NCBI RefSeq assembly: GCF_013184745.1
Contig: NZ_JAATVU010000054.1
Span: forward strand, 1 to 41,185
DNA from: Mangrovicoccus sp. HB161399
GTDB lineage: Bacteria; Pseudomonadota; Alphaproteobacteria; Rhodobacterales; Rhodobacteraceae
DNA length: 41,185 nucleotides
Direction: 5' to 3'
Position 1 is the first letter of the stretch; each line of letters opens with the position of its first letter. This document shows positions 827-14,668 of the stretch, piece after piece. The notes beneath the pieces are model-generated. The model had not been told where the DNA came from, made no database searches, and saw nothing but the letters and a program-made list of their open reading frames with translations. The translations under genes and the position numbers were made by a program.

Positions 827-2113
827 TCAGGCCGGAACCAGCGCGCCCAGCCGCGCCAGCTCCGCAACTGCCGGAGCGGCGGCCTGCGACGGACCCAGCC
901 GCGCCAGCCGGGCGGCAAACTCGTCCGCCGTGCCGGGCTGTGCCAGCGCGGCCAGCAGCGCCGCCGCCGGATACGGGCCGAGCCGCGCCAGTTGCGTCCC
1001 GTCCGTCCGAAGCTCCATGCCACGCGCCCATTGGATATGCCCGCCGGCCATCAGCGGGACCTGCGCCGCGACAGCGGCCAGGCGCAGCCGGCCGGGCGGC
1101 GGCGATGACGGCAGGGCAGGAGTCGCCGGCATCTCCTGCCAGAATGCCGTGCGGTGCCGCCCCTGCTCGGCATGGGAGGCTGCGGTTGCCGCCCGTGCCG
1201 CCGTGCAATCCGTCCGGTGCCGCAGCCGCAGGAACTGTTCTGCCGCGCCGCGCTCTGCCGGATGGCGCAGCCATGTGGCCGCCGCGGCTGCCCCCTGCGC
1301 GGCGCTGCGCAGCGCGTGGACCAGCCCGTGCGCCCCGACCGGATCGCGGGCCAGCGCCGCGTCGCCGATCCGGATGATCCCGGGCACGGCCAGCGGGTCC
1401 GCCGCCGCAAGCCCGGCCGGGACCGGCGTTCCTGTCTCGCAGGTTTCGGTTATTGGATGGCCGGATGCCCTGAGCCAGCCTTGCCGTCCGGCGGCATCCA
1501 TCCCGGCCAGCGTGCCGGGCGCGGCAACGCGGAGTCCCTGCAGCTCTCCGGCGGCTGCGGCCCACCAGAGCCAGCCATCGGCCAGCGCGGCAAGTCCCAT
1601 GCTGGGCTGCTCTCGGCGGGCGTTCCCTCGGAAGGGCAGGGCGGCGCGCGGCGGCCCTAGCGGCGCCAGGCCGCCTGCGGCGCGTCCCCTGGCGTCGAGG
1701 ATGACCGCGGCCACGAGGACGGCACCGCTGCGGCAGGCGGCGCGGCCCGGCTCGAGCCTGTCGATGCGTTCCGCCGCGAGTTCCGCACCGGCGGCGAAGG
1801 CGGCGCGGCGCAGCGCGGCATGAAGGCGCGGCCGGGACAGCAGCAGCGGACCGGCATGGCCGAAACTGCGGATCTCGCTGTCGGGCCGCCAGGCAAGTTC
1901 GATGCGTTCCGCGGTCCCGAGGATGGCGTCCGACAGCGCCGGGGCCAGTCCCAGCTCGGCGGCCAGCCTCTGACCGGCGGCGGGCAGGCTCTCAATCCGC
2001 GGCGGGACGGGCGGGCAGGGATCGGCGAGCGTGACGCGGAAGCCCTGCCGCGCGAGGATTGCCGCCGCGGCGCAGCCGGCCGGCCCGGCCCCGGCGACCA
2101 GGATCTCAGCCAT
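827..2113 (-). CDS. FAD-dependent oxidoreductase, LodB/QhpG-like candidate maturase
   Basis: 428 residues starting with a Rossmann dinucleotide motif, MAEILVAGAGPAGCAAAAIL (G8, G10, G13), followed by a group-A flavin monooxygenase/halogenase-like fold with a second flavin segment around IIRIGDAALARDPVGAHGL. Known: flavoproteins of this class (LodB, GoxB, QhpG) are needed to form protein-derived tryptophylquinone cofactors in partner oxidases. Inference: it matures the LodA-like polypeptides encoded upstream in the same operon. It overlaps the radical SAM gene by 8 bases, so the two are probably translationally coupled. It is the last gene of the operon; the only hairpin behind it is a weak TGGGTC/GACCCA stem at 778-791 next to the IS remnant. 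A small-molecule hydroxylase or halogenase cannot be excluded. Confidence 0.7.
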   Translation of the reverse strand: MAEILVAGAGPAGCAAAAILARQGFRVTLADPCPPVPPRIESLPAAGQRLAAELGLAPALSDAILGTAERIELAWRPDSEIRSFGHAGPLLLSRPRLHAALRRAAFAAGAELAAERIDRLEPGRAACRSGAVLVAAVILDARGRAAGGLAPLGPPRAALPFRGNARREQPSMGLAALADGWLWWAAAAGELQGLRVAAPGTLAGMDAAGRQGWLRASGHPITETCETGTPVPAGLAAADPLAVPGIIRIGDAALARDPVGAHGLVHALRSAAQGAAAAATWLRHPAERGAAEQFLRLRHRTDCTAARAATAASHAEQGRHRTAFWQEMPATPALPSSPPPGRLRLAAVAAQVPLMAGGHIQWARGMELRTDGTQLARLGPYPAAALLAALAQPGTADEFAARLARLGPSQAAAPAVAELARLGALVPA

Positions 2114-3419
2114 CGGCGAACCAGCCGGGCCGCGCCGCCATCAGCCGCCCATAGGCGCCGATCGCGAAATCCAGCCAGCCGCGCACGAAATCGCATGCCG
2201 GGCGCCCGGCATGCAGCACCTCGTGGTGGCAGCCGCCGCCGCAGAGCCGCCGGGCCCAGCAGGACGCGCAGTCCGCCTGTGCCTCGACCTGCCGCTCGGC
2301 GAGGAAGCGCTGCCGTGCCGCAACGTCCGGACCGCCCGAAAGATCGCCCATCCCGCCCAGCGGATCGTTCACGAACCGGTGGCAGGCGGCGTAGTTTCCC
2401 TCGGCATCGACCGCCAGGTAGTCGCGCACCGCGCCGCAGGAATGGCTGCGCGGGCGGCCGCGGTGCAGCTCGCCGAGCGCTGTGGCGAGATTGGCGAAGG
2501 CGTGGGGGCGGCCCGCGATCGTGGCTGCCAGCCAATCCTCCCCCGCGGCGGTCATGGCCTCGAGCAGCAGCGGGAATTCGGCTGCGCCGAGCGCGCCCGA
2601 GCCGGTGGGCGAGGCCAGCATCGGCGAGACCCCGACCGAGCCGAAGCCCAGATCCGACAAGGCCGCCACCGTGGCGGGGATGTCCAGGTTTTCCGGCGTC
2701 ACCGTCACCCGTGCCGACAGCTTGATCCGGTCGGACCGTGCCGAGAGCGGACCCAGCCGCGCCGCCACCCGGTCGAAGCTGCCCGCCCCGCCGGCCATCG
2801 GCCGCAGCCTGTCATTTGCCGCCCGATCTCCGTCGAGGCTGACCGTCACGGCAAAGCGCTGTTCGGCCAGGAACTCGGCATCGGCCTCCCGCAGCAGCGT
2901 CGCATTGGTGGTCATGGCGAAGCCGACCTTCACCGCCCGCGCCCCGGCGCGGCGCCGGGCGAAGGCGACCGTGTCGCGGATCAGCCCGCTGGCCATCCAG
3001 GGCTCTCCGCCCATGAAGGCGATCTGGACCGTGCCGCCCGGAGGCGCATCGGCGACCAGCCGCTCCACCGCAGCCTTCGCGACCCCGGACGGCATCTGCC
3101 GCTGCGGCCCGCCGAAGGCGCCGCCTGCGGCATAGCAGTAGCCGCAGGCCATGTTGCACGCCTGGGACACGGTCAGCGCCAGCGCCCGGACCGGCGGCGG
3201 GGCGCCCTGTTCCGGCAGGGCAGGTTCCGCCGCATCGAGGCCGAGACGCGCCAGCATCGCCGCGGCGGCCCGGTCGCCCGACCGCAGGGCAGTTTCCATC
3301 TCCTCCGCCTGCGCGGGGGACAGCGCGTAGAGCGCGGCGCTTTCGGCATGCAGCAGGAGTGTCCCGGACAGATGTGCCAGGCGGCTCTGCAGGCGGGGAG
3401 GGGGGGCGCCGTCAGCCAC
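2106..3419 (-). CDS. Radical SAM/SPASM peptide-modifying enzyme
   Basis: 437 residues. The radical SAM cluster site is C88-C92-C95 (QACNMACGYCYA), followed by the GGEP motif at 137-140 (FMGGEPW). The C-terminal SPASM region has C328, C346, then CASC (384-387), C393, C397 (CGGGCHHE) and C409, with the classic CxxC, x5, CxxxC spacing that binds auxiliary Fe-S clusters. Known: such proteins install thioether or other crosslinks in peptides; QhpD does this for the quinohemoprotein amine dehydrogenase gamma subunit and carries a similar GGGC-H-E stretch. Inference: it crosslinks one of the LodA-like proteins in this operon. Translation starts at a GTG (3419) inside the end of the preceding gene. 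No short precursor peptide gene was found nearby, so a protein substrate is more likely than a RiPP. Confidence 0.85.
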   Translation of the reverse strand: MADGAPPPRLQSRLAHLSGTLLLHAESAALYALSPAQAEEMETALRSGDRAAAAMLARLGLDAAEPALPEQGAPPPVRALALTVSQACNMACGYCYAAGGAFGGPQRQMPSGVAKAAVERLVADAPPGGTVQIAFMGGEPWMASGLIRDTVAFARRRAGARAVKVGFAMTTNATLLREADAEFLAEQRFAVTVSLDGDRAANDRLRPMAGGAGSFDRVAARLGPLSARSDRIKLSARVTVTPENLDIPATVAALSDLGFGSVGVSPMLASPTGSGALGAAEFPLLLEAMTAAGEDWLAATIAGRPHAFANLATALGELHRGRPRSHSCGAVRDYLAVDAEGNYAACHRFVNDPLGGMGDLSGGPDVAARQRFLAERQVEAQADCASCWARRLCGGGCHHEVLHAGRPACDFVRGWLDFAIGAYGRLMAARPGWFADG

Positions 3420-5280
3420 CGCAGCCGCCCCGGAACGGCGCGAAGAACGGGATGCCGATGCGCTGCTTCGCCAGTTCCTCGCCCTTTTCCCAGAGCAGGT
3501 GCATGATGTCGCGCGCCTCGACGATCAGCGCCTCGGACGCCGCCCGGTCGGCATTGCTGCGGGCGGTTTCCGCCTCGGCGCGGTAGCCGTCCTGCAGTGC
3601 CGCCACCGCCGCTTCGAGCAGCTTGAGCGCGGGCGCCACCGCCGCGTCGCTTGGATCGGCAAGCGTCACCCCGCGCAGGTAGAGATGCTCCAGCTCCGAA
3701 TAGGGGGCGAGGATCGCGTGGACATCGCGGAACTTGTGGTAGTGCTGCAGCCCGTCGCTGTCGATCCGCACCGCCAGCTGGAACAGCCCCGGCGGATAGC
3801 CGTCCTCCTCGCGCAGGTGCTTCACCAGCTGGGCATATTCGGTGTCGATGTCGCCGCCCGGCCGCTCCAGCGCGACGAACTGCTCGATGATCCCCGGCGT
3901 GGCCGGGTCGAGGCTCAGGCTGTGCTCCGGGTCGGCATGGCCGGATGTGGGACCGACCACGGGCCGGTAGGCCGGCAGCACGTCCGGGCGCAGGGCTGTC
4001 AGCGACCACAGCATCTGGTTGACCCAGCGCAGGTGGGTCATCTCGCTGATGGCAACCGACAGCAGGATCTGCCGCGCCGCGCGCAGGTCGTCGGCAAGAC
4101 CCGGCCAGGCGGCGGCTTCGGCGGCGGTCACCTCCTCGGGCGCGCGGATCGAGAAGGTCGCGTAGAGATAGCGCAGCGCCAGGATGAATTCGAGCGGGCC
4201 CAGATTGTCCCGCAGGTCCGCGCAGATCGCCGGCAGCGAAGGACCGGCAACGTCCGGATCCGCGGCGGGAAGCTCGCCGTCGGGGGTGACATTCGCTTCC
4301 TGGCCCTGCAGCACGAAGTCGAGCTCCTGCCAGTGCAGGTTGATTTCGTAGGGGTCGTAGCGGTAGGGCCGCGCGCCGTCGATCGTGGTGGCTGCCTGCA
4401 CGTCGGCGGCCGGATCCGTGCGGCGGCGCATCCAGTCCAGGAAGCTCACCGGCTGCAGCGGATCGGTCTCCGACGTGCGGTCGGGGATTTCCTGCCCGGA
4501 TTGCATCCGGCCGCGGTCGTTCGGGTCGGGCACCTCGCCCAGCACGACGTCGGGGTGGTTCGAGGCCCAGTACTGGCAGGCGCAGTCGCGGAAATCATGC
4601 GTCCAGGGACTGCACATCGAGGCGGTCAGCTCGCCGGGATGGTAGACATCCGGGATCATCCCCTCGCCGTCCAGATAGGCGCGCCGCTTGCCGGTCAGCA
4701 CCACCGGCACGCCCATGGGCTGGCCCTGCGGGTCGCGCTGGGTCAGCGCGATGGCCAGGTCGGCCTCGGCCGGATCGGCGCTGCGCTCGATCAGGCGGAT
4801 GATCCACCAGGCGATCTCGCCCTCGTAGGGGGTGTAGAGCAGCGCGTTCTGCCAGACCGAGATGTCGTAGAGCTCGATCCGGCGGCCCTTCTGCTCGACA
4901 TAGTGCAGGTACCACTGGCCGCTGCCCAGAGCCGAGCCCTCCGGTCCGTTCAGCTTCTGCGCGAGGTCCTGCACCCAGGGCCAGGCCTCGTCGAAAACCG
5001 GGTCGCCGGTGGTGTCGGCATAGACGAGCTGCGCCCCCTGCGTGCCGTCCGGCCCGTCCGGCGTCACGCCCGGAAAGGCGAAGACGAGGCCGGGGAAGAA
5101 GCGCACGTCGAGCTGGCGCAGGTCGAATTCCAGCCCCGGAAAGCAGTTGCCGACGCCGGAATCCATCAAGGTGGCGACGGAATTTCCCAGCACCGGCTCG
5201 GGATAGGCGGGCAGGTCCGGCTCGGCCTGGCGCGCGGCCATGTTCAGGGGGCGGATCTTGCGGTCGGGCGTGTCGGTCAT
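3412..5280 (-). CDS. LodA C-terminal-like segment fused to a VioB-type ferritin-like domain
   Basis: 622 residues in two parts. Residues about 30-260 resemble the C-terminal, cofactor-bearing part of LodA/GoxA quinoprotein oxidases: GVGNCFPGLEFD at 42-53 (family pattern around FxPGIE) and, later, MCSPWTHDFRDCACQYWASN at 222-241, like the family's PW..D...C....YW region. Residues about 340-615 form a helical ferritin-like domain with an ExxH metal-type motif (SEMTHL, E413/H416) and FVALERP, as in the VioB-type Ferritin-like family. Candidate cysteine tryptophylquinone residues are Cys46 and Trp238, but the exact equivalence to LodA Cys/Trp is unproven; Cys223, 233 and 235 are alternatives. The start ATG at 5280 overlaps the stop of the LodA-N-like gene (ATGA). 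Domain assignments come from recalled motifs, not a search. Confidence 0.65.
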   Translation of the reverse strand: MTDTPDRKIRPLNMAARQAEPDLPAYPEPVLGNSVATLMDSGVGNCFPGLEFDLRQLDVRFFPGLVFAFPGVTPDGPDGTQGAQLVYADTTGDPVFDEAWPWVQDLAQKLNGPEGSALGSGQWYLHYVEQKGRRIELYDISVWQNALLYTPYEGEIAWWIIRLIERSADPAEADLAIALTQRDPQGQPMGVPVVLTGKRRAYLDGEGMIPDVYHPGELTASMCSPWTHDFRDCACQYWASNHPDVVLGEVPDPNDRGRMQSGQEIPDRTSETDPLQPVSFLDWMRRRTDPAADVQAATTIDGARPYRYDPYEINLHWQELDFVLQGQEANVTPDGELPAADPDVAGPSLPAICADLRDNLGPLEFILALRYLYATFSIRAPEEVTAAEAAAWPGLADDLRAARQILLSVAISEMTHLRWVNQMLWSLTALRPDVLPAYRPVVGPTSGHADPEHSLSLDPATPGIIEQFVALERPGGDIDTEYAQLVKHLREEDGYPPGLFQLAVRIDSDGLQHYHKFRDVHAILAPYSELEHLYLRGVTLADPSDAAVAPALKLLEAAVAALQDGYRAEAETARSNADRAASEALIVEARDIMHLLWEKGEELAKQRIGIPFFAPFRGGCGG

Positions 5281-7067
5281 GCCTCGTCTCCGGTCGGGGC
5301 TTCGGGCGCCGCGCGCCAGTCGGGATCGTGTTCGAGCTTGTCGAGATAGGCCATCAGCAGGTCGTATTGCCGCCGCGTGATGGACAGGGGCACGCCCATC
5401 GAGTGGCGCATGAAGGGCGGCATCCGCATGTCGTAGGAGGTGTCGGGCAGGGTGCGCGGATCGCGGAAGCGCAGAGGTTCCTTGCCGGCGCGGCCGGTTG
5501 CGGCCGGCACCTCGGCGGGCTTGGTCACGCCGGGCCGTGCGGGCAGTTCCGACACCCAGCCGAAGGGCGGGCGGACGATCTCGCGCACCCGGTCGGGACG
5601 GCGCGACAGGAAGGCGCGCAGCACCGGGCTGTCTGCCATCCGGACATGGACCTGCTGCACCACGGTCGTGTAGGGCAGCCGCTCCGACGCGCCGGACGCG
5701 GGGGCCAGCGTTGCGCCCTGTCCGGGCGTGTAGTCCGGCGTCAGATCGGCATAGGGCTTGTCGGCGCGGCGCATGCTTTCCGGACCGAGCCGCGGGCTGA
5801 TGCCCTCGTCCCAGTTCGGATCGTTCTTGTTCCTCGCGCCGTGCATCCAGGCATTGCCCGACAGCGCCCAGTGCCGCCGCTGGTCCAGGTTGACGAGGCT
5901 CGCGGTCTCGAAGACGCGGCGGAAGAGGTCGAGGATCTCCAGCGGCGTGGTCTCGATGTCGAGCTTGGCGGGCGGTAGCTCGCGGTCCTCCAACTCGTCG
6001 CGGATCGAATACATCGGGCGGCGGTCCGGGGCGAAATCCGGCGGCCCGGCAAAGGCGCGGGCCTGCGCGACATGGAGCTGCCCGGCCACGGCCAGGCGCG
6101 CCTCCACCACCAGGTCGCATGTGTCGTCGATCAGCCCCCAGCTCTGGCCGGGATCGATCCGCGCACCGTCATAGCTGTCCATCGGCGTCGGCCATTTCGG
6201 CTTGCTGTCCGCGCCGAAGCTGTAGCCGAGCCAGGGCGAGCCGCTCGACAGGATGCGGTTCTCCGGCCGGGTCATGCGGTGGATGCGGCCGTACTCGGTG
6301 ACATGCGGCACGAAATCTCCGGGGGCCAGCGGCGAGGCGACGGCCTCGGAGGCCTCGGGCGGGCCGAAGCTGTCCCCCTTGCCCGGGGTGAAGCGCAGCC
6401 GCACCTGGTCGAGCCGCGTGCGGCAGGACCAGTCCTCGTGGTTGGGCGCGAAGGTCTGGACATGGCCCAGCGGCAGCGGCGCGTCGGGGCGCACCAGCGG
6501 AACCTCGCCCTCGACATGCGGGCTGACCGCATCGAGCGGCTGCGGGTCGTAGTCGGTGGCGCGGAACACCGTGCGGGCGATGGCGGCATCGGCTGCCCGC
6601 TTGGTGCGCGCCTGCGCCTTGCGGTTCGCGGCGGTCACGGTGAATTGCAGCGCGCCGGGATCGGTCCGGTGCTCTGCCAGAAGCGCGGCAGTGACGGGCA
6701 CGGCGGTGACCTTGCCCGAGCGCGCCTGCATCCGCGCCCAGAGCTCGAAGAACGGCGCGACCGGCTTCACCCGGTTCTCTCTGTCCTTGAAGGCGATCCG
6801 CTCCGGCAGCCGCACCTCCAGCTTCATCGGCGGATAGCCGGTGGTTTCCGTCGATACCGGCACCAGCGTCGGCGCGGGCTCGACCATGGTCTGCACGCCG
6901 CGATGCGGGTTCTCGTCGGTCTTCCAGCGGTAGGCGTCCAGCGGTTCCGGCGAAGCGCCCACGCGGGCGATGGCCATCGGCGGGTCGAAGAACAGTCCGA
7001 TCATCCGCTCGCCCTCGGCGTCGCGGCTGCGCCAGGGCGCGCAGGGGCCGTCATGCGTGCAGGTCAT
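5277..7067 (-). CDS. LodA N-terminal-like protein (separate subunit)
   Basis: 596 residues from ATG at 7067. After a short cysteine-containing leader (MTCTHDGPC) comes LFFDPPMAIARVGASPEPLD, which matches the start of LodA/GoxA proteins (HPAIGIARVGNSP type), then RIAFKDRENRVKPVAPFFEL, the typical FKDxxGRVKRQ.ARFR region. It ends in SITRRQYDLLMAYLDKL, resembling the LodA LTxTQxQYxLLK segment that directly precedes the cofactor domain. So it seems to be the N-terminal part of a LodA-like oxidase ending exactly where the next gene's LodA-C-like segment begins. Stop and start codons overlap on both sides (ATGA at 7064 and 5277), implying coupled, possibly stoichiometric synthesis. No signal peptide is evident. 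Inference: it pairs with the 3412-5280 product to rebuild an amino-acid or amine oxidase. Confidence 0.65.
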   Translation of the reverse strand: MTCTHDGPCAPWRSRDAEGERMIGLFFDPPMAIARVGASPEPLDAYRWKTDENPHRGVQTMVEPAPTLVPVSTETTGYPPMKLEVRLPERIAFKDRENRVKPVAPFFELWARMQARSGKVTAVPVTAALLAEHRTDPGALQFTVTAANRKAQARTKRAADAAIARTVFRATDYDPQPLDAVSPHVEGEVPLVRPDAPLPLGHVQTFAPNHEDWSCRTRLDQVRLRFTPGKGDSFGPPEASEAVASPLAPGDFVPHVTEYGRIHRMTRPENRILSSGSPWLGYSFGADSKPKWPTPMDSYDGARIDPGQSWGLIDDTCDLVVEARLAVAGQLHVAQARAFAGPPDFAPDRRPMYSIRDELEDRELPPAKLDIETTPLEILDLFRRVFETASLVNLDQRRHWALSGNAWMHGARNKNDPNWDEGISPRLGPESMRRADKPYADLTPDYTPGQGATLAPASGASERLPYTTVVQQVHVRMADSPVLRAFLSRRPDRVREIVRPPFGWVSELPARPGVTKPAEVPAATGRAGKEPLRFRDPRTLPDTSYDMRMPPFMRHSMGVPLSITRRQYDLLMAYLDKLEHDPDWRAAPEAPTGDEA

Positions 7068-8590
7068 GCCAATTCTCCGCAGGGCAGGTCGAGCGGAATG
7101 GACTGCTCGTATTCGAAGAGGTTGCCGGGATCGTGGCGGCGCTTTATCTCCACCAGCCGTTCGAGGTTCTCCCCGAAATACTGGCGCAGGAAGCCCGGAT
7201 TTCCGCGGCGCGGATAGTTCTGGTAGCGGTGCCCGTCCGACATTGCCCCGGCGATCCGGCCGAATTCGTCGAGCCAGGCCGTGCTGGCCCCGCGGTGCGC
7301 GTCGAAGGTCCAGAACGCCCAGGAGAACAGGTCGAGGCTGGCATCGCGGTGGCGGTAGGCCATCTCGTCCGGGGCCGGCTCGTTGATTTCGCCGCCGTAG
7401 AATTCCGCGGCGATGAAGCAGGTCAGGTCGGGCGCCTTGAGGAAATGGTCGAGCATCTCGCGCCAGCGCTCGGCCGGATGCGATTTCGCGATGATCCGTC
7501 CGTCGACCAGCGGCTTGGTGTTCATCGAGACATTCGGCATGTCGATCCCCGGCGGGTCGACCGTGGCCAGCAGCGCCTCGTTGACCTCCAGGTAGCGTCC
7601 GGCGCGCCAGATCTCCAGCTGGCTCTTGCGGTCCTCCAGCTGTTCCAGGAGCGGCCCGATCGCCGCGGCGCATTCGGCCTCGGTGCCGTCATAGAGCCCG
7701 CGGATCAGCAGGAAGGGGAGCTGCGCGCCCGGCTGCTCCTTGGTCGGCAGGTACATCATCAGCGCCTGGTGGCCCATCTTCGCCGGTCCGGTGACCGCGT
7801 AATCGGCCTGCAGCTGCGCCATGACCCGCGCGGCGCGGGCGATCCCTGCCTCGTCGGAAAGCGGGAACTTCAGCCCGAAGGCCCAGACCTCCTCCAACGG
7901 GACAAGCCGGTACTCGATCTCGGTGAGCACGCCGAACTGGTTGCCGGTGCCGCCGCGCGCCGCCCAGAAGAGGTCGGCGTTTTCCTCCCGGTTGCAGCGC
8001 CGGATCTGCCCGTCGGGCGTCACCATGCGCAGCGACAGGACATTGTCGCAGTTCAGCCCGAAGATCCGCGAGGTGAAGCCGTAGCCGCCGCCCTGCATGT
8101 AGCCCGCGACCGCCACAGTTTCGCAGCCGCCGCCCGGAACGTGCAGCGAGTAGTGGTCGAGCACCCGGTTGAGCTTGTGGAAGATCGTCCCGGCGCCGAC
8201 CCGTGCGGTGCGGTGCACCGGGTCGACCAGCACATGGTCGATCCGGCTGGTGTCGATCACGATCTGGTCGTTCGAGGAATAGCCGGCGGTGGAATGCCCG
8301 CCCGAGCGGGCGGTGACCTTCAGCTTCTGCGCCTGCGCGAAGTCGAGCGCGGCGATCACGTCGGTCTCGCAGGCGGCATGGATGATCAGCTGCGGATAGG
8401 CCTGGTAGCTGTGCATGAAGACCATGCGGTCGTCATTGTAGCCCGGATAGCCCGGCTGCTGCACGTCGCCGGCGAGCTTGGTTTCCAGCTCGGCAAGCGC
8501 TTCGGCGGAATAGGACAGGAGCCCGGTCTCCGTCCGCTGGTATTCGGTCCAGGGGGAGGGCCGTAGTTTTTTCTTTCGAAATCTGGTCAT
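7064..8590 (-). CDS. Berberine-bridge-type FAD-linked oxidase
   Basis: 508 residues. The FAD-binding type 4 domain carries ARSGGHSTAGYSS with H99 and VPGGGCETVAVAGYMQGGGY with C156, the His and Cys that in this family attach FAD at two points (bicovalent flavin). The C-terminal BBE motif is present near the end as YQNYPRRGNPGF and RRHDPGNLFEYEQSIPL. Such enzymes oxidise alcohols, sugars or alkaloid-type amines with O2. The start at 8590 has GAGACG and GGCAGGACA upstream; a longer in-frame reading to 8977 would run through the divergent promoter region and is not used. First gene of the five-gene operon. There is no signal peptide, so it is probably cytosolic. The substrate is unknown; it may act on the same compound as the LodA-like oxidase or on its product. 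Confidence 0.85.
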   Translation of the reverse strand: MTRFRKKKLRPSPWTEYQRTETGLLSYSAEALAELETKLAGDVQQPGYPGYNDDRMVFMHSYQAYPQLIIHAACETDVIAALDFAQAQKLKVTARSGGHSTAGYSSNDQIVIDTSRIDHVLVDPVHRTARVGAGTIFHKLNRVLDHYSLHVPGGGCETVAVAGYMQGGGYGFTSRIFGLNCDNVLSLRMVTPDGQIRRCNREENADLFWAARGGTGNQFGVLTEIEYRLVPLEEVWAFGLKFPLSDEAGIARAARVMAQLQADYAVTGPAKMGHQALMMYLPTKEQPGAQLPFLLIRGLYDGTEAECAAAIGPLLEQLEDRKSQLEIWRAGRYLEVNEALLATVDPPGIDMPNVSMNTKPLVDGRIIAKSHPAERWREMLDHFLKAPDLTCFIAAEFYGGEINEPAPDEMAYRHRDASLDLFSWAFWTFDAHRGASTAWLDEFGRIAGAMSDGHRYQNYPRRGNPGFLRQYFGENLERLVEIKRRHDPGNLFEYEQSIPLDLPCGELA

Positions 8591-8841: not shown

Positions 8842-9834
8842 ATGTTCGATGCCATCCTGGTGGAGAAACCCGGCGACACCCAGACCGTGTCGCTGACGCA
8901 GGCGGAGGAGGCCCAGCTGCCCGAGGGCGACGTGACGGTCGACGTGGCCTGGTCGACCCTGAACTACAAGGACGCACTGGCGATCACCGGGCGCGCGCCG
9001 GTGGTGCGCAAGTTCCCGATGGTGCCGGGGATCGATTTCGCGGGCGTGGTCGCCGAAAGCTCCCATCCGGACTGGAAACCGGGCGACCGGGTCGTGCTGA
9101 ACGGCTGGGGCGTGGGCGAGACCCATTGGGGCGGGCTGGCAACGAAGGCCCGCGTCAAGGGCGACTGGCTGGTGGCGCTGCCCGAAGGCTTGAGCATGCG
9201 CCAGGCGATGGAAATCGGCACGGCCGGCTACACCGCGATGCTCTGCGTGATGGCGCTGGAACGCCACGGTGTGCTGCCGGAGTCGGGCGAGATTGCGGTG
9301 ACCGGCGCCGCGGGCGGGGTCGGCAGCGTCGCGACCGCGCTGCTTTCGAAGCGCGGCTACCAGGTGGCGGCCGTCACGGGGCGGGCCTCGGAGGCGGAGT
9401 ACCTCAAGGGGCTGGGCGCCGCCTCCATCGTCGGCCGCGAGGAACTGTCGGGCAAGCCGCGGCCGCTGGGCAAGGAACGCTGGGCCGGCGGGGTGGATGT
9501 CGCGGGCAGCACGGTTCTGGCGAACCTGCTGTCGATGATCCGCTACGGCGGCACGGTGGCGGCCTGCGGCCTGGCGGCGGGGATGGATCTGCCCGCGACG
9601 GTGGCGCCCTTCATCCTGCGCGGCGTGACGCTGGCGGGCGTCGACAGCGTGATGTGCCCGATCGCCCGGCGCCGCGAGGCCTGGAGCCTGCTGGCGGCAG
9701 AACTGGACCTGGACAAGCTCTCGGCGCTGTCGGTGGAACTGCCCTTCGAGGCGGTGATCGAAACCGCGCCGAAATTCCTCGACGGCCAGATCCGCGGGCG
9801 CGTGGTCGTGCCCGTGGCGCCGGATCTCGGCTGA
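8842..9834 (+). CDS. acuI: Acrylyl-CoA reductase (NADPH), AcuI
   Basis: 330 residues, zinc-independent medium-chain dehydrogenase/reductase of the AcuI/YhdH group. Visible marks are [14 protein letters not shown] near the N-terminus, PGIDFAGVV, and the NADPH-binding loop [20 protein letters not shown]. AcuI reduces toxic acrylyl-CoA to propionyl-CoA with NADPH, detoxifying the acrylate released from DMSP. The gene directly downstream is a DMSP lyase, the pairing known from Rhodobacter sphaeroides (acuR-acuI-dddL), which makes the assignment firm. A GAAGGA ribosome binding site precedes the ATG. No acuR repressor gene lies upstream; the 8591-8841 gap instead separates it from the divergent oxidase operon. 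A generic YhdH quinone reductase would be the alternative without this context. Confidence 0.92.
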
Positions 9835-9843
9835 GGGCACGCG

Positions 9844-10551
9844 GTGGCGATCGCGGTTGCCGGCCCGGAGGAGATCGGGCAGATGCATCTCCAGGACTGT
9901 CCCGGCTGGTTCTACCTGCTGCGGGAATACGACATGCTCTACCGGCACGGCTCGTCGGGGGGCAGCCGGCTGATCCGGTCGCACCGCAAGCGGGTGCGCG
10001 ACCGGCTGTCCCATGTCATCGACGCCAATCCCGCGATCCTGCCGCGGGCGCCGCAGGAAAAGCCGGTGACCGCGCATCTGCCGCGGGCGCTGGATCTGGG
10101 CGAACGCGGCGCGGTTGCGGGCATGGCACGCGCGCTGTCCCGCGTCGCGCCGCTGCTGACATGGGAATACGGCTACGAGAAGGTGCCGAAGGCGCTGGCC
10201 CGGAAATACGCCTACTGCGAAATCCTCGGCCCGCGCGGCCCGGTATTCTGCGACGGGCTGATCCTCGGCTTCGTGCTCTTCGCGCCGAAGACCACCTATC
10301 CGCAGCACAGCCACCGGGAGATCGAGGAAAGCTACGTCTCGGTCGCGGGCGCCTGGTCGGAGAACGATGCGGCCGTGCATGCGCCCGGATCGCTGATCCT
10401 CAACCGTCCGGACCAGGAGCACCGCATCACCACCGACGACCTCGCGCCCTGCCTCCTGGCCTATGCCTGGACCGGGCCCGAGACGCGGCTGCATGCGCCG
10501 GGGATGAAGCTGAGCGCGACCCGCAAGGCGCGGATCGCACAGGGCATCTGA
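9844..10551 (+). CDS. dddL: Dimethylsulfoniopropionate lyase, DddL
   Basis: 235 residues, the usual DddL size. The cupin metal site is readable as PQHSHREIEESYVSV (H155, H157, E161, with Y164 as the likely base) and DQEHRITT (H193). Conserved family stretches YEKVPKALARKYAY and APGSLILNRPDQEHRITT are present. It cleaves DMSP into dimethyl sulfide and acrylate. It starts at a GTG nine bases after the acuI stop with GAGGG as binding site, so the two are cotranscribed and AcuI can remove the acrylate product. DddL differs from DddQ and DddW in length and N-terminal helices; the 235-residue size and the acuI linkage favour DddL. Catalysis needs a divalent metal, consistent with the intact ligand set. 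Confidence 0.92.
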   Translation: MAIAVAGPEEIGQMHLQDCPGWFYLLREYDMLYRHGSSGGSRLIRSHRKRVRDRLSHVIDANPAILPRAPQEKPVTAHLPRALDLGERGAVAGMARALSRVAPLLTWEYGYEKVPKALARKYAYCEILGPRGPVFCDGLILGFVLFAPKTTYPQHSHREIEESYVSVAGAWSENDAAVHAPGSLILNRPDQEHRITTDDLAPCLLAYAWTGPETRLHAPGMKLSATRKARIAQGI

Positions 10552-10589: not shown

Positions 10590-12029
10590 TCAGGCGCGGC
10601 CCGAGAACAGCTCCTTCTTGACGATGGCATGGACGCCCCAGTTGCCGTCCACCACCTGGGTGATGCCGAAATCGACGCCGACGGACATCAGCGAATGGGT
10701 CTCGTCCTCGGTCAGCCCCTTGGTGGTCATCAGGAACTTGCGCATCTTGCGGAAGGCGTCGCGCATGGCGTCGTCGATCGAGCTCTTGCCGTAGATGTCG
10801 GACTGCGCCGTCGCGCCGAGGGTCCCGAGGTAGTTCGGCACCGAGAAGCCGTGTACGACCCATTCCGACTGGGTTTCCAGCATCGGGTGGTCCATTTCCT
10901 CCAGCGGCGTGCCGGCGAGGTCAGCCTTCTTGTGCAGGATCAGCTGGAACGTGCCGGTCAGCGAGCATTCGATCGCGGTGCCGCAGAGCTCGCTGTCGCC
11001 CTGGCTGGCATGGGGGTCGCCGACCGACAGCAGCGCACCCTCGACCGAGACCGGGTAGTACATCACCGCGCCCTTGCCGATCCGCCAGTTGTCGACATTC
11101 CCCCCGGTATAGCTCGGCGGCACGGAATCGACGAAATCCGCCTCGGCGGGCGCGACGCCCAGCGTGCCGAAATGCGGCCGGATCGGGATGCGCACGCCCT
11201 TGAGCACGTCGTAGTTGCGGCTGGTGAGCCCATGGTCCACCGGCACGCCGGGATAGTCGATGGTCGGATGGGTCACGCCGAACGGATCGGTCTGCGGCAC
11301 CCACTTGAAGTTGTAGACGGCTTCCGCCCAGTTGCGGTCGCCGCTGGCATCGACTTCGTAGATGGTGATGACCTCGCGCTTCGCGCCGTTCAGCATGTCA
11401 TTGTAGTGGTATCCCCACCAGGCCGCCGCGTTCGAGCCGAAGCTCTTGCCGGTGAATTCGGGATTGGCGCAGGGGCGCGGCTTGCAGTCGAGGATGCGCA
11501 CCTCCAGCACGTCGCCGGGCTCCGCGCCGCGGACGTAGACCGGGCCGGTGAGGATGTGCACGCCCTGGCCGTCGCCGGACCCGACCTTGTATACGGCCGG
11601 ATCGGTCGAGCCCGCGCCGCGGCGGTCGACGCCTTTCTCGGTCGCGGTCCATTTGTAGACGCTCTCGGCCCCCTCGTCGCCCTGCACCATGCGCTCCAGG
11701 TCGTCGGCGGCATGGTGGGTCAGCGTTTCGATCGTCACGTAGTCGCCGCTGTCGACCTCGACCTTCGGGGCCAGCGTCTTCGAGAAATAGCCCCAGTGCA
11801 CCGTGTCGGAATTTGCGGGCAGGTAGTGGTAGGACGGCGCCGCGGGCGCCTTGGCCGCGCTGGTCTGGGCCAGTGCCGGGGTCACCAGCGACAGCCCGCC
11901 CGCGGCGAAGCTGCCCGCGCCGATCAGTCCTGCCCCCAGGAAGCCGCGGCGGCCCGGGTTGATCTCCTCCTTGAACTGCCGGAAATGCGCCTCGAAATCG
12001 GGGCAGTTGACGTCGTCTCCCATGCACAT
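10590..12029 (-). CDS. Tat-exported acetamidase/formamidase family protein
   Basis: 479 residues. A twin-arginine signal lies at GRRGFLGAGLIGAGSFAAGG (R27, R28) after a 25-residue charged leader, with likely cleavage after ALA near 54, so the enzyme acts in the periplasm. The body is an FmdA/AmdA-type amidase: VHWGYFSKTL, FGSNAAAWWGYHY, RPHFGTLGVAP, PPSYTGGNVDNW and the metal-site-like GDPHASQGDSELCGTAIE. Such enzymes hydrolyse acetamide, formamide or similar short amides to ammonia and an acid. Start 12029 is supported by AGGAGAG seven bases upstream. It is transcribed away from the AraC-amidase fusion, whose amidase half is roughly half identical to it; the two look like products of duplication. 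Substrate is not predictable from the sequence. Confidence 0.85.
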   Translation of the reverse strand: MCMGDDVNCPDFEAHFRQFKEEINPGRRGFLGAGLIGAGSFAAGGLSLVTPALAQTSAAKAPAAPSYHYLPANSDTVHWGYFSKTLAPKVEVDSGDYVTIETLTHHAADDLERMVQGDEGAESVYKWTATEKGVDRRGAGSTDPAVYKVGSGDGQGVHILTGPVYVRGAEPGDVLEVRILDCKPRPCANPEFTGKSFGSNAAAWWGYHYNDMLNGAKREVITIYEVDASGDRNWAEAVYNFKWVPQTDPFGVTHPTIDYPGVPVDHGLTSRNYDVLKGVRIPIRPHFGTLGVAPAEADFVDSVPPSYTGGNVDNWRIGKGAVMYYPVSVEGALLSVGDPHASQGDSELCGTAIECSLTGTFQLILHKKADLAGTPLEEMDHPMLETQSEWVVHGFSVPNYLGTLGATAQSDIYGKSSIDDAMRDAFRKMRKFLMTTKGLTEDETHSLMSVGVDFGITQVVDGNWGVHAIVKKELFSGRA

Positions 12030-12091
12030 GGCTGTCTCTCCTGTCGGTTTTTTCTGCTGTTGTTCCGCCAGTAGCGGGCCGCCGCGGCCGC

Positions 12092-12221
12092 GGGGCAAGC
12101 TTTGCCGCGGATGCCGGAATCGCCGGTGTCCGGGGCAGAAAGCTGCGCGGTGGCAAGGGCTTGCGCTGCGTCTCCGGGGCGGTGCCGGACAGGCGCTGCG
12201 TCCCGGGGCAAGGCTTTGTGC
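12092..12221. promoter_or_regulatory. Cluster of repeated imperfect palindromes in the divergent amidase promoter
   Basis: The 311-base gap (12030-12340) between the two amidase genes holds repeated elements near GCAAG-N2-CTTGC: GGGGCAAGCTTTGC at 12092-12105, GGGGCAGAAAGCTGC at 12132-12146, GGCAAGGGCTTGC at 12152-12164 (GCAAG/CTTGC perfect) and GGGGCAAGGCTTTG at 12205-12218. A direct repeat GCGCTGCGTC(T)CCGGGGC occurs at 12163-12180 and 12193-12209, 30 bases apart. Iterated, helically spaced sites are typical for AraC-family activators; the fused regulator encoded beside them is the obvious candidate. Confidence 0.45.
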
Positions 12222-12340
12222 ATCTGGCGGCAAGGCGCGGACCCGCCGCTGCACAAGAAAGCGGCAGGCCCGGCGGGGCAGGGCGCCAGGGCCACGATTG
12301 CAGGCGCGGGGCGGCGGATTCCGCGCTAGGCTCGGCTCCC

Positions 12341-14668
12341 ATGGAGATGCTGACCGGCACCGATCACCTCGACCTCTCGACTCTTCCCGCAGCCGCACGG
12401 GCCGAGGGATGGCGGCTGCGCCTCGGTGCGCTCGGCCTCGCGCCCGCGGGCGAGGCGCCGCCAAGCGGCACGCTCAGCGTGCTGCGCGCCGCCAGCGGAC
12501 TGCGGCTCGCCCGTCTGGTCGCGCCGCCCCAGGCCCTGCGCCCGCTGGCGCCGCGGCCGCGCCCGGCGCCCTTCCTGGTCATCCTGACGCTGCGCAGCCG
12601 CGGCGTGCTCTCGGCCGGGGAACATGTGCAGTACCTCGCGCAGAACGACCTGAGCGTCGCCGACCAGGCTTCCGCCTGGCAGATCGCCTGGGACTCCGAC
12701 GTCAAGGCGATACTGCTGGAGCTGCCCCGCCCGCTGGTCGCCGCGCGGCTCGGCGCGCACCGGCCGCACCTGCCGCAGGTGCTGGGCGCCTCGGTGGAGG
12801 CCGACATGCTGCGCGCCATGGCGGGGGTGCTGGGCGCCCAGATGGACAGCCTCGCGCCCGAGGATCTGGCCGGCAGCGAGGGTGCGCTCTTGGACCTGCT
12901 GTGCAACGCGCTGATCCGCGAGGCGCTGCCCGAGGACGGCGCGATGACGCCGGTGCAGGCCGCGCAGTTCCGGCGGGTCTCGGCGGCGGTGGAGACCGGG
13001 CTGTCGCGGACCGACCTGTCGCTGCCGGACGTGGCCGGGGCGGCGGGACTGTCGGCGCGCTACGTGCAGCGGCTGTTCGAGCTTTCGGGCGAAAGCTTCT
13101 CGGCGCATCTGCGGCGGCGGCGGCTGGAAAGCAGCCGCGCCGACCTGCTCGACGCCGGTCAGGCGGGCGTGTCCATCGCCCAGATCGCCCATCGCCGCGG
13201 CTTCGCCAGCGCGCCGCATTTCAGCCGGTCCTTCCGAGACGCCTACGGCCTGTCGCCGAAGGAGTTCCGCGAGGCGCAGCGCACCGCCCCCTTGCCCTAT
13301 GCCTTCCGCGGCAATCCCGGCCAGGGTGTCCGTCCGCCCGCGCCGCGCAGCGCCCCCGCGGCCGGCCCCTGCGCCGGTGCGTCGCCGCCGTTGCCGATGC
13401 AGGCGGAGGACGCGGATTTCGTGCTGCCCGCCCATGCCGGAACGGTGCATTGGGGCCATCTCAGCCGCTCCCTGCCGCCCGCGCTGTTCGTGCCCTCGGG
13501 CGCAACCGTGCGGGTCGAGACCCTGACCCAGCATGGCGGCGACGACCCGGCCCGCTTCATCGAGGGCGATCCGGGCGCCGAGAGCGTGTTCCGCTGGACC
13601 GCCGAGGGCAAGGCGGTGGACCGGCGCGGAGCGGGGCCGATGGATGCCTCGATCTTCGGCCGCGGCGCGGGCGAGGGGTTCGGCGTGCATATCTGCACCG
13701 GCCCGATCCATGTCGCGGGCGCGCGGCCAGGGGACGTGCTGGAGGTGGAAATCCTCGGCATCGCGCCGCGGCCCTGCGCCAATCCCGAATTCGCCGGCAA
13801 GGCCTTCGGCTCGAATGCTTCGGCCTGGTGGGGCTACCAGTACGGCGATCCGCTGGCAGGCACGCAGCGCCACGAGACTGTGACGCTCTTCGAGGTCGAC
13901 CTGGCGCAGCCGCACATTGCGCGGGCGATCTGCCAGTATGACTGGGTGCCCCAGACCGATCCGTCGGGCGTGCGCCACGATACGATGGACTATCCCGGCA
14001 TCCCGGTCGATCCGGACAGCGTCACCCGCCGGCCGGCCCTGCCCGGGATCGCGGTGCCTGCGCGTCCGCATTTCGGCTTCGTCGGCGTCGCGCCGCGCGA
14101 GGCGGAGATCGTGGACACCATTCCGCCGGGATATTTCGGCGGCAATGTCGACAACTGGCGCGCGGGGCCGGGGGCCAAGATCTACCTGCCCGTGGCGGTC
14201 GAGGGTGCGCTGCTGTCGATCGGCGACGGCCATTTCAGCCAGGGCGACGGCGAGATCAACGGGACCGGGCTGGAGATGTCGCTGACCGGCACGGTGCGGA
14301 TCGTGCTGCACCGCCAGGGAGAAAGCGCGCTGCCGCAGATCCGCGGCCTGTCCGCGCCGCTGATCGAGACCCCGGAGGAATGGGTGATCCAGAGCTTCGC
14401 CTTCGAGAACCACCTGCGCGATCTCGGCCGTTCCGCGCAGACCGACGTCTATACCCGCTCCACCGTCGACATGGCGCTGCGCAATGCCTTCCGCCAGGCG
14501 CGGCGCTTCCTGATGGATGTCTACGCCCTGGGAGAGGACGAGGCGCATGCGCTGCTGTCCGTCGCGGCCGATTTCAGCGTCACCCAGGTGGCCGACGGCA
14601 ATATCGGCGTCCATGCCTGCCTGCGCCGGTCGCTGTTCGAACCGGGCACCGGAGCCGGTCAGCGGTAG
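12341..14668 (+). CDS. AraC-type regulator fused to an acetamidase/formamidase domain
   Basis: 775 residues in one uninterrupted frame. Residues about 70-200 match an AraC-binding-2-type sensor region; 213-315 are a double helix-turn-helix (LPDVAGAAGLSARYVQRLFE, then IAQIAHRRGFASAPHFSRSF and YGLSPKEFR). A proline/alanine-rich linker at about 316-353 leads to a full amidase domain (354-770) with VHWGHLSRSL, FGSNASAWWGYQY, RPHFGFVGVAP, PPGYFGGNVDNW and GDGHFSQGDGEINGTGLEMS, the last being the canonical family metal/catalytic stretch. The domain closely resembles the neighbouring Tat-exported amidase but has no export signal, so it is cytosolic. ATG 12341 is chosen because upstream codons lie in the repeat-bearing promoter. 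It may be an amide-sensing activator, a moonlighting enzyme, or both. Its 3' end overlaps the convergent LysR gene by 10 bases. Confidence 0.88.
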   Translation: MEMLTGTDHLDLSTLPAAARAEGWRLRLGALGLAPAGEAPPSGTLSVLRAASGLRLARLVAPPQALRPLAPRPRPAPFLVILTLRSRGVLSAGEHVQYLAQNDLSVADQASAWQIAWDSDVKAILLELPRPLVAARLGAHRPHLPQVLGASVEADMLRAMAGVLGAQMDSLAPEDLAGSEGALLDLLCNALIREALPEDGAMTPVQAAQFRRVSAAVETGLSRTDLSLPDVAGAAGLSARYVQRLFELSGESFSAHLRRRRLESSRADLLDAGQAGVSIAQIAHRRGFASAPHFSRSFRDAYGLSPKEFREAQRTAPLPYAFRGNPGQGVRPPAPRSAPAAGPCAGASPPLPMQAEDADFVLPAHAGTVHWGHLSRSLPPALFVPSGATVRVETLTQHGGDDPARFIEGDPGAESVFRWTAEGKAVDRRGAGPMDASIFGRGAGEGFGVHICTGPIHVAGARPGDVLEVEILGIAPRPCANPEFAGKAFGSNASAWWGYQYGDPLAGTQRHETVTLFEVDLAQPHIARAICQYDWVPQTDPSGVRHDTMDYPGIPVDPDSVTRRPALPGIAVPARPHFGFVGVAPREAEIVDTIPPGYFGGNVDNWRAGPGAKIYLPVAVEGALLSIGDGHFSQGDGEINGTGLEMSLTGTVRIVLHRQGESALPQIRGLSAPLIETPEEWVIQSFAFENHLRDLGRSAQTDVYTRSTVDMALRNAFRQARRFLMDVYALGEDEAHALLSVAADFSVTQVADGNIGVHACLRRSLFEPGTGAGQR

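Follow-up and report, generated by a model that had tools for sequence, protein, structure and literature searches.

A predicted two-chain LodA/GoxA-like quinoprotein with a fused ferritin-like domain, encoded beside QhpD-like and QhpG-like enzymes in Mangrovicoccus sp. HB161399

The 41,185-nucleotide contig NZ_JAATVU010000054.1 of the alphaproteobacterium Mangrovicoccus sp. HB161399, analysed over its whole length (hereafter the window), carries five tightly packed minus-strand genes encoding, in this order, a BBE-type FAD oxidase, the two chains of a split LodA/GoxA-like protein (N-chain and C-chain), a radical SAM/SPASM enzyme and a flavin monooxygenase. The two chains probably form an oxidase of the LodA/GoxA kind with a cysteine tryptophylquinone (CTQ) cofactor, matured in the style of quinohemoprotein amine dehydrogenase (QHNDH), in which a ferritin-like domain fused to the C-chain would probably handle peroxide or product. 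The predicted active-site segment combines features of QHNDH and of LodA/GoxA, which suggests that these families may be related. The adjacent QhpD-like and QhpG-like genes and the residues resembling those crosslinked in the gamma subunit of QHNDH (QhpC) were missed by an earlier note on this DNA and are the larger novelty. The five genes are the following.

7064..8590, minus strand: BBE-type FAD oxidase, first gene of the block (PF01565, 107.1 bits; PF08031, 50.8 bits)
5277..7067, minus strand: N-chain, LodA/GoxA-like N-terminal half, 596 amino acids (profile and fold match)
3412..5280, minus strand: C-chain, LodA_C-like segment followed by a PF12902 ferritin-like domain, 622 amino acids (Pfam matches)
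2106..3419, minus strand: QhpD-like radical SAM/SPASM enzyme (TIGR03906 as best NCBIfam model; CNMACGYC motif)
827..2113, minus strand: QhpG-like flavin monooxygenase (NF049967 QhpG as best NCBIfam model)

The genes for the N-chain and the C-chain share 4 bp (ATGA), and by sequence the N-chain and the front half of the C-chain resemble the N- and C-terminal parts of LodA. The earlier note had recognised a split LodA/GoxA-like protein in these two open reading frames (ORFs), which lie where it placed them, and profile comparisons bear this out. Profile-profile alignment with hhalign matched the N-chains (27 rows) to five single-chain LodA-like proteins at E 4.9e-12 (0/100 column shuffles as good) and the C-chains (26 rows) to the same five proteins at E 9.4e-7; for the LodA-like part of the C-chains, 0/98 column shuffles were as good. 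Single proteins of the split family are matched only weakly by Pfam and NCBIfam models, and the domain searches proposed in the earlier note gave a divided answer: the window C-chain matches PF12902 above the cut-off and PF18417 LodA_C just below it (23.3 of 25 bits), whereas the window N-chain alone has no Pfam match. PF17990 LodA_N was found at E<=1 in 5/15 aligned N-chains (best 1.2e-4), the window chain not being among them, while LodA_C and PF12902 were both present at E<=0.1 in all 13 aligned C-chains, including that of the window. Among the more distant relatives introduced below, the cut-offs were exceeded by one of seven N-chains scanned (LodA_N) and by three of ten C-chains (LodA_C).

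A fold search with the predicted N-chain model also points to this family: all 41 PDB chains found at E<=0.001 are GoxA (match E 2.5e-7), with low TM-scores (0.20-0.27 by query), and QHNDH alpha comes up only with E values of 0.11 and 0.32. The model has a mean pLDDT of 55 and is confident mainly in its N-terminal beta domain. Searches of the PDB by sequence returned only weak GoxA matches for the N-chain alignment (E 0.41-0.75) and nothing relevant for the C-chain alignment. Because the end of the N-chain aligns weakly (E 0.011) with the LodA stretch preceding its cofactor half, we can only infer the exact split point. Two peculiarities of N-chains were also observed. Several chains of the window clade open with a Cys-rich tail (C...CAPWCGRD; window 7067-7020, minus strand), which is absent in Bradyrhizobium, and the N-chain of Nostoc sp. 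UHCC 0302 (L034:4046-5680) itself starts with a PF12902 domain (136.6 bits, residues 17-243), the C-chain having another.

Split LodA is a conserved family, and neither a chance arrangement nor one broken gene. A genome scan recovered 16 related loci, with both halves matched at 16/16, the BBE gene at 15/16, and all five genes in the same order at 13/16 (the last gene of L004 being truncated by a contig end). The exceptions are L010 and L013, both on short contigs, the latter with its N-half in two frames, and L002, where only the last ~80 residues of the N-chain are matched, along with most of the C-chain. This last copy, from Mangrovicoccus ximenensis (L002:7552-10352), combines the end of an N-chain with a longer C frame and is rearranged or misassembled. 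The family is uncommon: matches were found in 4/295 sampled genomes of the taxonomic family of the window, its own genome included, and in 2/398 sampled genomes of the phylum, namely its own genome and one weak match over the ferritin-like part.

A plasmid scan added 17 more distant records from Nostoc, Streptomyces, Embleya, Rhizobium, Bradyrhizobium, Microvirga, Mesorhizobium, Novosphingobium and Mycetohabitans, hosts that span cyanobacteria, actinobacteria and proteobacteria. We examined 13 of them, leaving aside H7, H8, H12 and H17 as same-species repeats. At 13/13 of these loci the two halves are separate genes with an adjoining radical SAM gene, which at some loci sits between them; the N-half of L042 is in two frames, and this locus was omitted from the N-chain profile. 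No match to the BBE gene was obtained at any of the 13. Six of the distant C-chains carry the ferritin-like domain and seven are short (263-292 amino acids) and lack it. The set of 26 C-chains used for residue counts comprises 13 of the window type (window included) and these 13, with L002 and L013 omitted as incomplete and L007 and L016 omitted as their extracted frame ran through a stop. Split and known systems also co-occur: one split-system genome encodes a LodA-like protein of the single-chain type together with a LodB-like monooxygenase (G000:C258:92987-93415; L030, L052), and one plasmid of Novosphingobium sp. RL4 bears both a split LodA system (L042) and a divergent QhpC (L064).

The candidate cofactor residues are located in the LodA-like part of the C-chain, numbered here with M1 at 5280.

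4549..4614, minus strand: CTQ/crosslink segment C223-x5-D229-x3-C233-x-C235-x2-W238-x5-D244 (pattern in 26/26 split chains and 0/8 single-chain LodA-like proteins)
4567..4584, minus strand: predicted CTQ pair C233 and W238, corresponding to LodA C516 and W581 (3WEU numbering and alignment)
5128..5145, minus strand: C46...E51 in NCFPGLEFD, possible counterpart of QHNDH-gamma Cys7/Glu16 (PGWE); Cys in 24/26 and Glu in 26/26 chains

In the window the segment reads C223-SPWTH-D229-FRD-C233-A-C235-QY-W238-ASNHP-D244. In LodA, numbered from PDB chain 3WEU, C516 is the Cys of PWQADFFNC, D512 stands four residues earlier and W581 is the second Trp of YSYWWPPQ; C516 and W581 are named as the CTQ residues in the available text of PMC4417212. 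As C233 and W238 align with these two, they stand at the CTQ positions of LodA, with D229 as the conserved Asp, and CTQ itself is predicted. Cys and Trp occupy these positions in 26/26 split chains. The earlier note had selected Cys46 and Trp238; its Trp holds, whereas its Cys does not, since LodA C516 aligns with C233 and C46 (GVGNC) was rejected as the CTQ cysteine. W317 of the W..L.FV motif was also rejected as the CTQ Trp, as the 3WEU numbering puts W581 in the WWP motif. In three single-chain LodA_C proteins (L023, L027 and L029), Phe replaces Trp in the later W..LGFI motif and the CTQ Trp is kept. The distance from the CTQ Cys to the Trp is 5 residues in the split chain, 6 in QHNDH (Cys37-Trp43), 13-35 in the eight LodA-like proteins and 65 in LodA. 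The LodA-like part of the C-chain contains exactly four Cys in the window and four to six across the 26 chains.

In QHNDH gamma, the available text of PMC8172795 gives thioethers between Cys7 and Glu16, Cys27 and Asp33, and Cys41 and Asp49, around a CTQ bond between Cys37 and Trp43. In a single MAFFT alignment of the 26 split chains, eight single-chain LodA-like proteins and 10 QhpC, C223/D229 pair with Cys27/Asp33, C235/D244 with Cys41/Asp49, and C233/W238 with Cys37/Trp43. The positions of Asp33, Cys37 and Trp43 hold D, C and W in all 44 proteins. Those of Cys27, Cys41 and Asp49 hold C, C and D in 26/26 split chains, 0/8 LodA-like proteins and 10/10 QhpC, the latter being the unique proteins from 11/13 loci found with a regular expression that already demanded most of the Cys pattern. 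At the two loci missed by this expression (L064 and L065) QhpC keeps the same Cys, Asp, Glu and Trp residues on inspection, as do PDB chains 1JMX_G and 1JJU_C. An hhalign comparison limited to QhpC and split chains gave the same register for Cys27, Asp33, Cys37, Trp43 and Asp49. Further upstream, the NCFPGLE motif containing C46 and E51 resembles the GC...PGWE motif that bears Cys7 and Glu16 of QHNDH gamma. In profile comparisons with shuffled controls, 0/200 shuffles were as good for QhpC against the LodA-like proteins, and 0/300 for QhpC against split chains and LodA-like proteins combined.

The two enzymes encoded downstream of the C-chain resemble the known maturases of QHNDH. The available text of PMC7876137 assigns formation of the Cys-to-Asp/Glu thioethers to QhpD and dihydroxylation of the CTQ Trp to QhpG. 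The best NCBIfam model for the radical SAM protein of the window is the QHNDH maturase TIGR03906 (292.3 bits), followed by PapB (242 bits), and its CxxxCxxC motif is present as CNMACGYC. The monooxygenase is nearest to QhpG (NF049967, 205.8 bits), ahead of GoxB (49.8 bits) and LodB (24.5 bits). The window-type radical SAM profile scored 386-597 bits at 13/13 distant split loci and 291-320 bits at 8/8 qhp loci; near eight single-chain lodA genes (regions of ~16 kb each) it gave one weak match (65 bits) and none at E<=1e-5 at the other seven. The window-type monooxygenase profile scored 152-226 bits at the seven distant loci with short C-chains; at the qhp loci it scored 124-169 bits at four and 32 bits at a fifth, with no match at three (L061-L063). 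In unrooted trees, QhpD (96/100), QhpG (97/99) and LodB (99/98) each form one side of a branch, and the split-family monooxygenases form no single group (L004 and L064 being omitted from the monooxygenase tree).

The fusion of the cofactor half to a ferritin-like domain, also proposed in the earlier note, is supported: in the window C-chain PF12902, which we take to be the VioB-type domain, scores 45 bits against a cut-off of 22.3.

3436..4248, minus strand: ferritin-like domain, approximate limits (ligand set E364, E413xxH416, E472, D509, H513)

The six di-metal ligand positions (E, E, H, E, D/E, H; E364, E413, H416, E472, D509 and H513 in the window) are conserved in 19/19 fused chains. Most of this domain is predicted with confidence, and the model is similar to CC_0557 (3HL1) and bacterioferritin; a Foldseek search with the C-chain model gave no match at E<=0.001, the best being 3HL1 at E 0.018. 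A separate PF12902 gene is located nearby in 6/7 short systems (none was recognised at L043), so that, with the fused chains, PF12902 is fused or nearby in 25/26 systems. Against the eight single-chain lodA regions the fused-domain profile gave one weak match (18 bits).

From the gene content, similarity and residue conservation described above, we infer the following course of events. The QhpD-like radical SAM enzyme would first make Cys-to-Asp/Glu thioethers between C223 and D229, C235 and D244, and possibly C46 and E51. The QhpG-like monooxygenase would then hydroxylate W238, and bond formation with C233 would complete the CTQ. The mature enzyme, formed by the N-chain and the C-chain together, would oxidise a primary amine or an amino acid, most likely with O2 as electron acceptor, so that H2O2 would be formed together with an imine or aldehyde. 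The most likely task of the ferritin-like di-metal domain, whether fused or encoded by a neighbouring gene, would be to consume the peroxide or act on the product; peroxide removal and imine processing may both be considered as candidate roles. In evolutionary terms, the split family could be a bridge. QHNDH gamma would represent the same CTQ module in minimal form, and in LodA/GoxA the additional crosslink residues would have disappeared along with the radical SAM step, with a loop inserted between Cys and Trp. As a whole, the proposal that thioethers are set around the CTQ by QhpD-like and then QhpG-like enzymes, that the CTQ modules of QHNDH and LodA/GoxA share a single crosslinked ancestor and are not a product of convergence, and that the quinone is coupled to a di-metal domain of the same chain is a tentative one, which we regard as plausible rather than probable.

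Several observations weigh against maturation in the style of QHNDH. The pairing of C235 with Cys41 is aligner-dependent: it was obtained by MAFFT only, using an added gap, and hhalign sets C235 opposite Asp39, or Pro40 once LodA-like proteins are added. The spacing of the crosslink partners is identical to that in QHNDH gamma for C223-D229 only. C46 is absent in 2/26 chains, and its partner E51 was placed by motif and not by alignment; five of the eight single-chain LodA-like proteins also have Cys at the position of C46, which is therefore no distinguishing mark of the split family. In direct comparisons of QhpC with the split C-chains, 40/200 shuffles were as good over the whole LodA-like part, which is not significant, and 5/300 for the CTQ segment alone, a modest result for a segment chosen after the LodA match. 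Because of these shuffle results, the relation among split LodA, LodA/GoxA and QHNDH gamma rests on the LodA link and on residue placement, not on a direct score. Pfam scans covering 13 C-chains of the window type and 10 distant ones found no match to the PF08992 gamma-subunit domain, and the CTQ segment of the predicted C-chain model has a pLDDT <50. Both maturase candidates score below the respective cut-offs, 453 bits for QhpD and 240 bits for QhpG. Finally, at the six plasmid loci of the ferritin type the window-type monooxygenase profile scored 95 bits at L032, 43-69 bits at L033, L034, L036 and L040, under the 78-96 bits that it gives at the eight lodA loci with LodB, and found nothing at L035, the monooxygenase being matched at 12/13 distant loci.

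Some of these points would fit a split LodA in which the monooxygenase suffices to form CTQ, with the radical SAM enzyme acting elsewhere or aiding folding and the extra Cys being structural or metal-binding. Such a system would agree with the available text of PMC7876137, where LodA/GoxA are described with a flavoprotein partner only, with the radical SAM score under the QhpD equivalog cut-off, with the non-significant direct similarity to QHNDH gamma and with the hhalign placement of C235 away from Cys41. We nevertheless find it rather unlikely, considering that the radical SAM gene accompanies the split genes at every distant locus and has no strong match near the single-chain lodA genes, and that C223, C235 and D244 are invariant in the split chains, with no Cys, Cys and Asp at these positions in 8/8 LodA-like proteins. 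A QHNDH-like dehydrogenase with a cytochrome instead of O2 as its electron acceptor is less likely still: it would account for the QHNDH-like maturases and CTQ segment, but the N-chain is LodA/GoxA-like, with QHNDH alpha in its fold list only at the E values given above, and none of the five operon proteins contains a CxxCH haem motif, which makes an O2-using oxidase the likelier possibility.

The split system could also be a biosynthetic enzyme, in which the quinone chain makes an imine that the ferritin-like domain and the BBE oxidase couple or oxygenate into a secondary metabolite; this can be combined with the proposed QHNDH-style maturation. This possibility is favoured by the intact di-metal ligands of the fused chains and by the BBE oxidase at the head of the window-type operon, for which bagremycin/ferroverdin enzymes are the best NCBIfam models. 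That match, however, lies far under the cut-off (152 of 800 bits), the BBE gene is unmatched at the 13 distant loci and no further biosynthetic gene was recognised in a scan of 10 neighbouring ORFs, so that we consider a biosynthetic role unlikely, if less so than the two preceding explanations. A pseudogene or a sequencing break in an ordinary single-chain LodA has nothing in its favour but the split itself and a negligible probability: the halves are separate at the related genome loci and at plasmid loci of three phyla, with the radical SAM gene between them in some.

Beyond the operon, a dimethylsulfoniopropionate lyase gene (PF16867, 152.8 bits; window 9844-10551, plus strand) adjoins a gene for a zinc-type dehydrogenase (8842-9834, plus strand), both divergent from the operon. 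Two matches to FmdA_AmdA (acetamidase/formamidase) were detected at 10590-12464 (minus strand) and 12161-14668 (plus strand); the latter ORF also holds an AraC-type regulator and perhaps corresponds to two genes read as one.

The predicted two-chain oxidase shares with LodA/GoxA the fold and profile of its N-chain, the LodA_C segment, the Asp-x3-Cys motif, the position of the CTQ Trp and an operon that includes a gene for a flavin monooxygenase. It differs from these single polypeptides in being encoded, in the window as in its relatives, by two genes, in having equivalents of Cys27, Cys41 and Asp49 and a QhpD-like radical SAM gene, and in the fusion of PF12902 to its C-half. A literature search by titles and abstract starts turned up no publication describing a split LodA accompanied by a radical SAM gene. 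The domain belongs to PF12902 by its score and intact di-metal ligands, and is distinguished by its fusion to a quinoprotein half. The earlier note suggested that a two-chain form with a di-metal-type domain would be a new architecture; the association with ferritin-like proteins is in itself not wholly new, since the available text of PMC4417212 reports LodA proteins fused to catalase-like and pfam14518 domains as well as fungal lodA genes with PF12902 genes next to them. Those proteins likewise link LodA to peroxide- or iron-handling domains, with the difference that the catalase-like and pfam14518 domains are N-terminal and the fungal PF12902 genes separate; a split chain or a radical SAM enzyme is not mentioned in that text.

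With QHNDH gamma, the C-chain has in common the Cys/Asp/Trp pattern of the CTQ cage, a similar Cys-Trp distance (5 versus 6) and radical SAM and QhpG-like partners. QhpC, however, is a protein of 79 amino acids, whereas the corresponding segment is here part of a 622-residue chain accompanied by a LodA-like N-chain; QHNDH has a di-haem alpha subunit, while the five operon genes include no haem motif, protease gene or transporter gene, unlike QHNDH, and the split-family maturases fall under the QhpD and QhpG cut-offs. The tryptophylquinone systems, including QHNDH and LodA/GoxA, are presented as convergent in the available text of PMC7876137. The combination of a LodA body with QHNDH-gamma-like crosslink residues and QHNDH-like maturases allows a common ancestry of the two to be tested directly. 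With it come a predicted class of radical-SAM-crosslinked oxidases, present in three bacterial phyla, and a natural fusion of a putative quinone site to a di-metal site.

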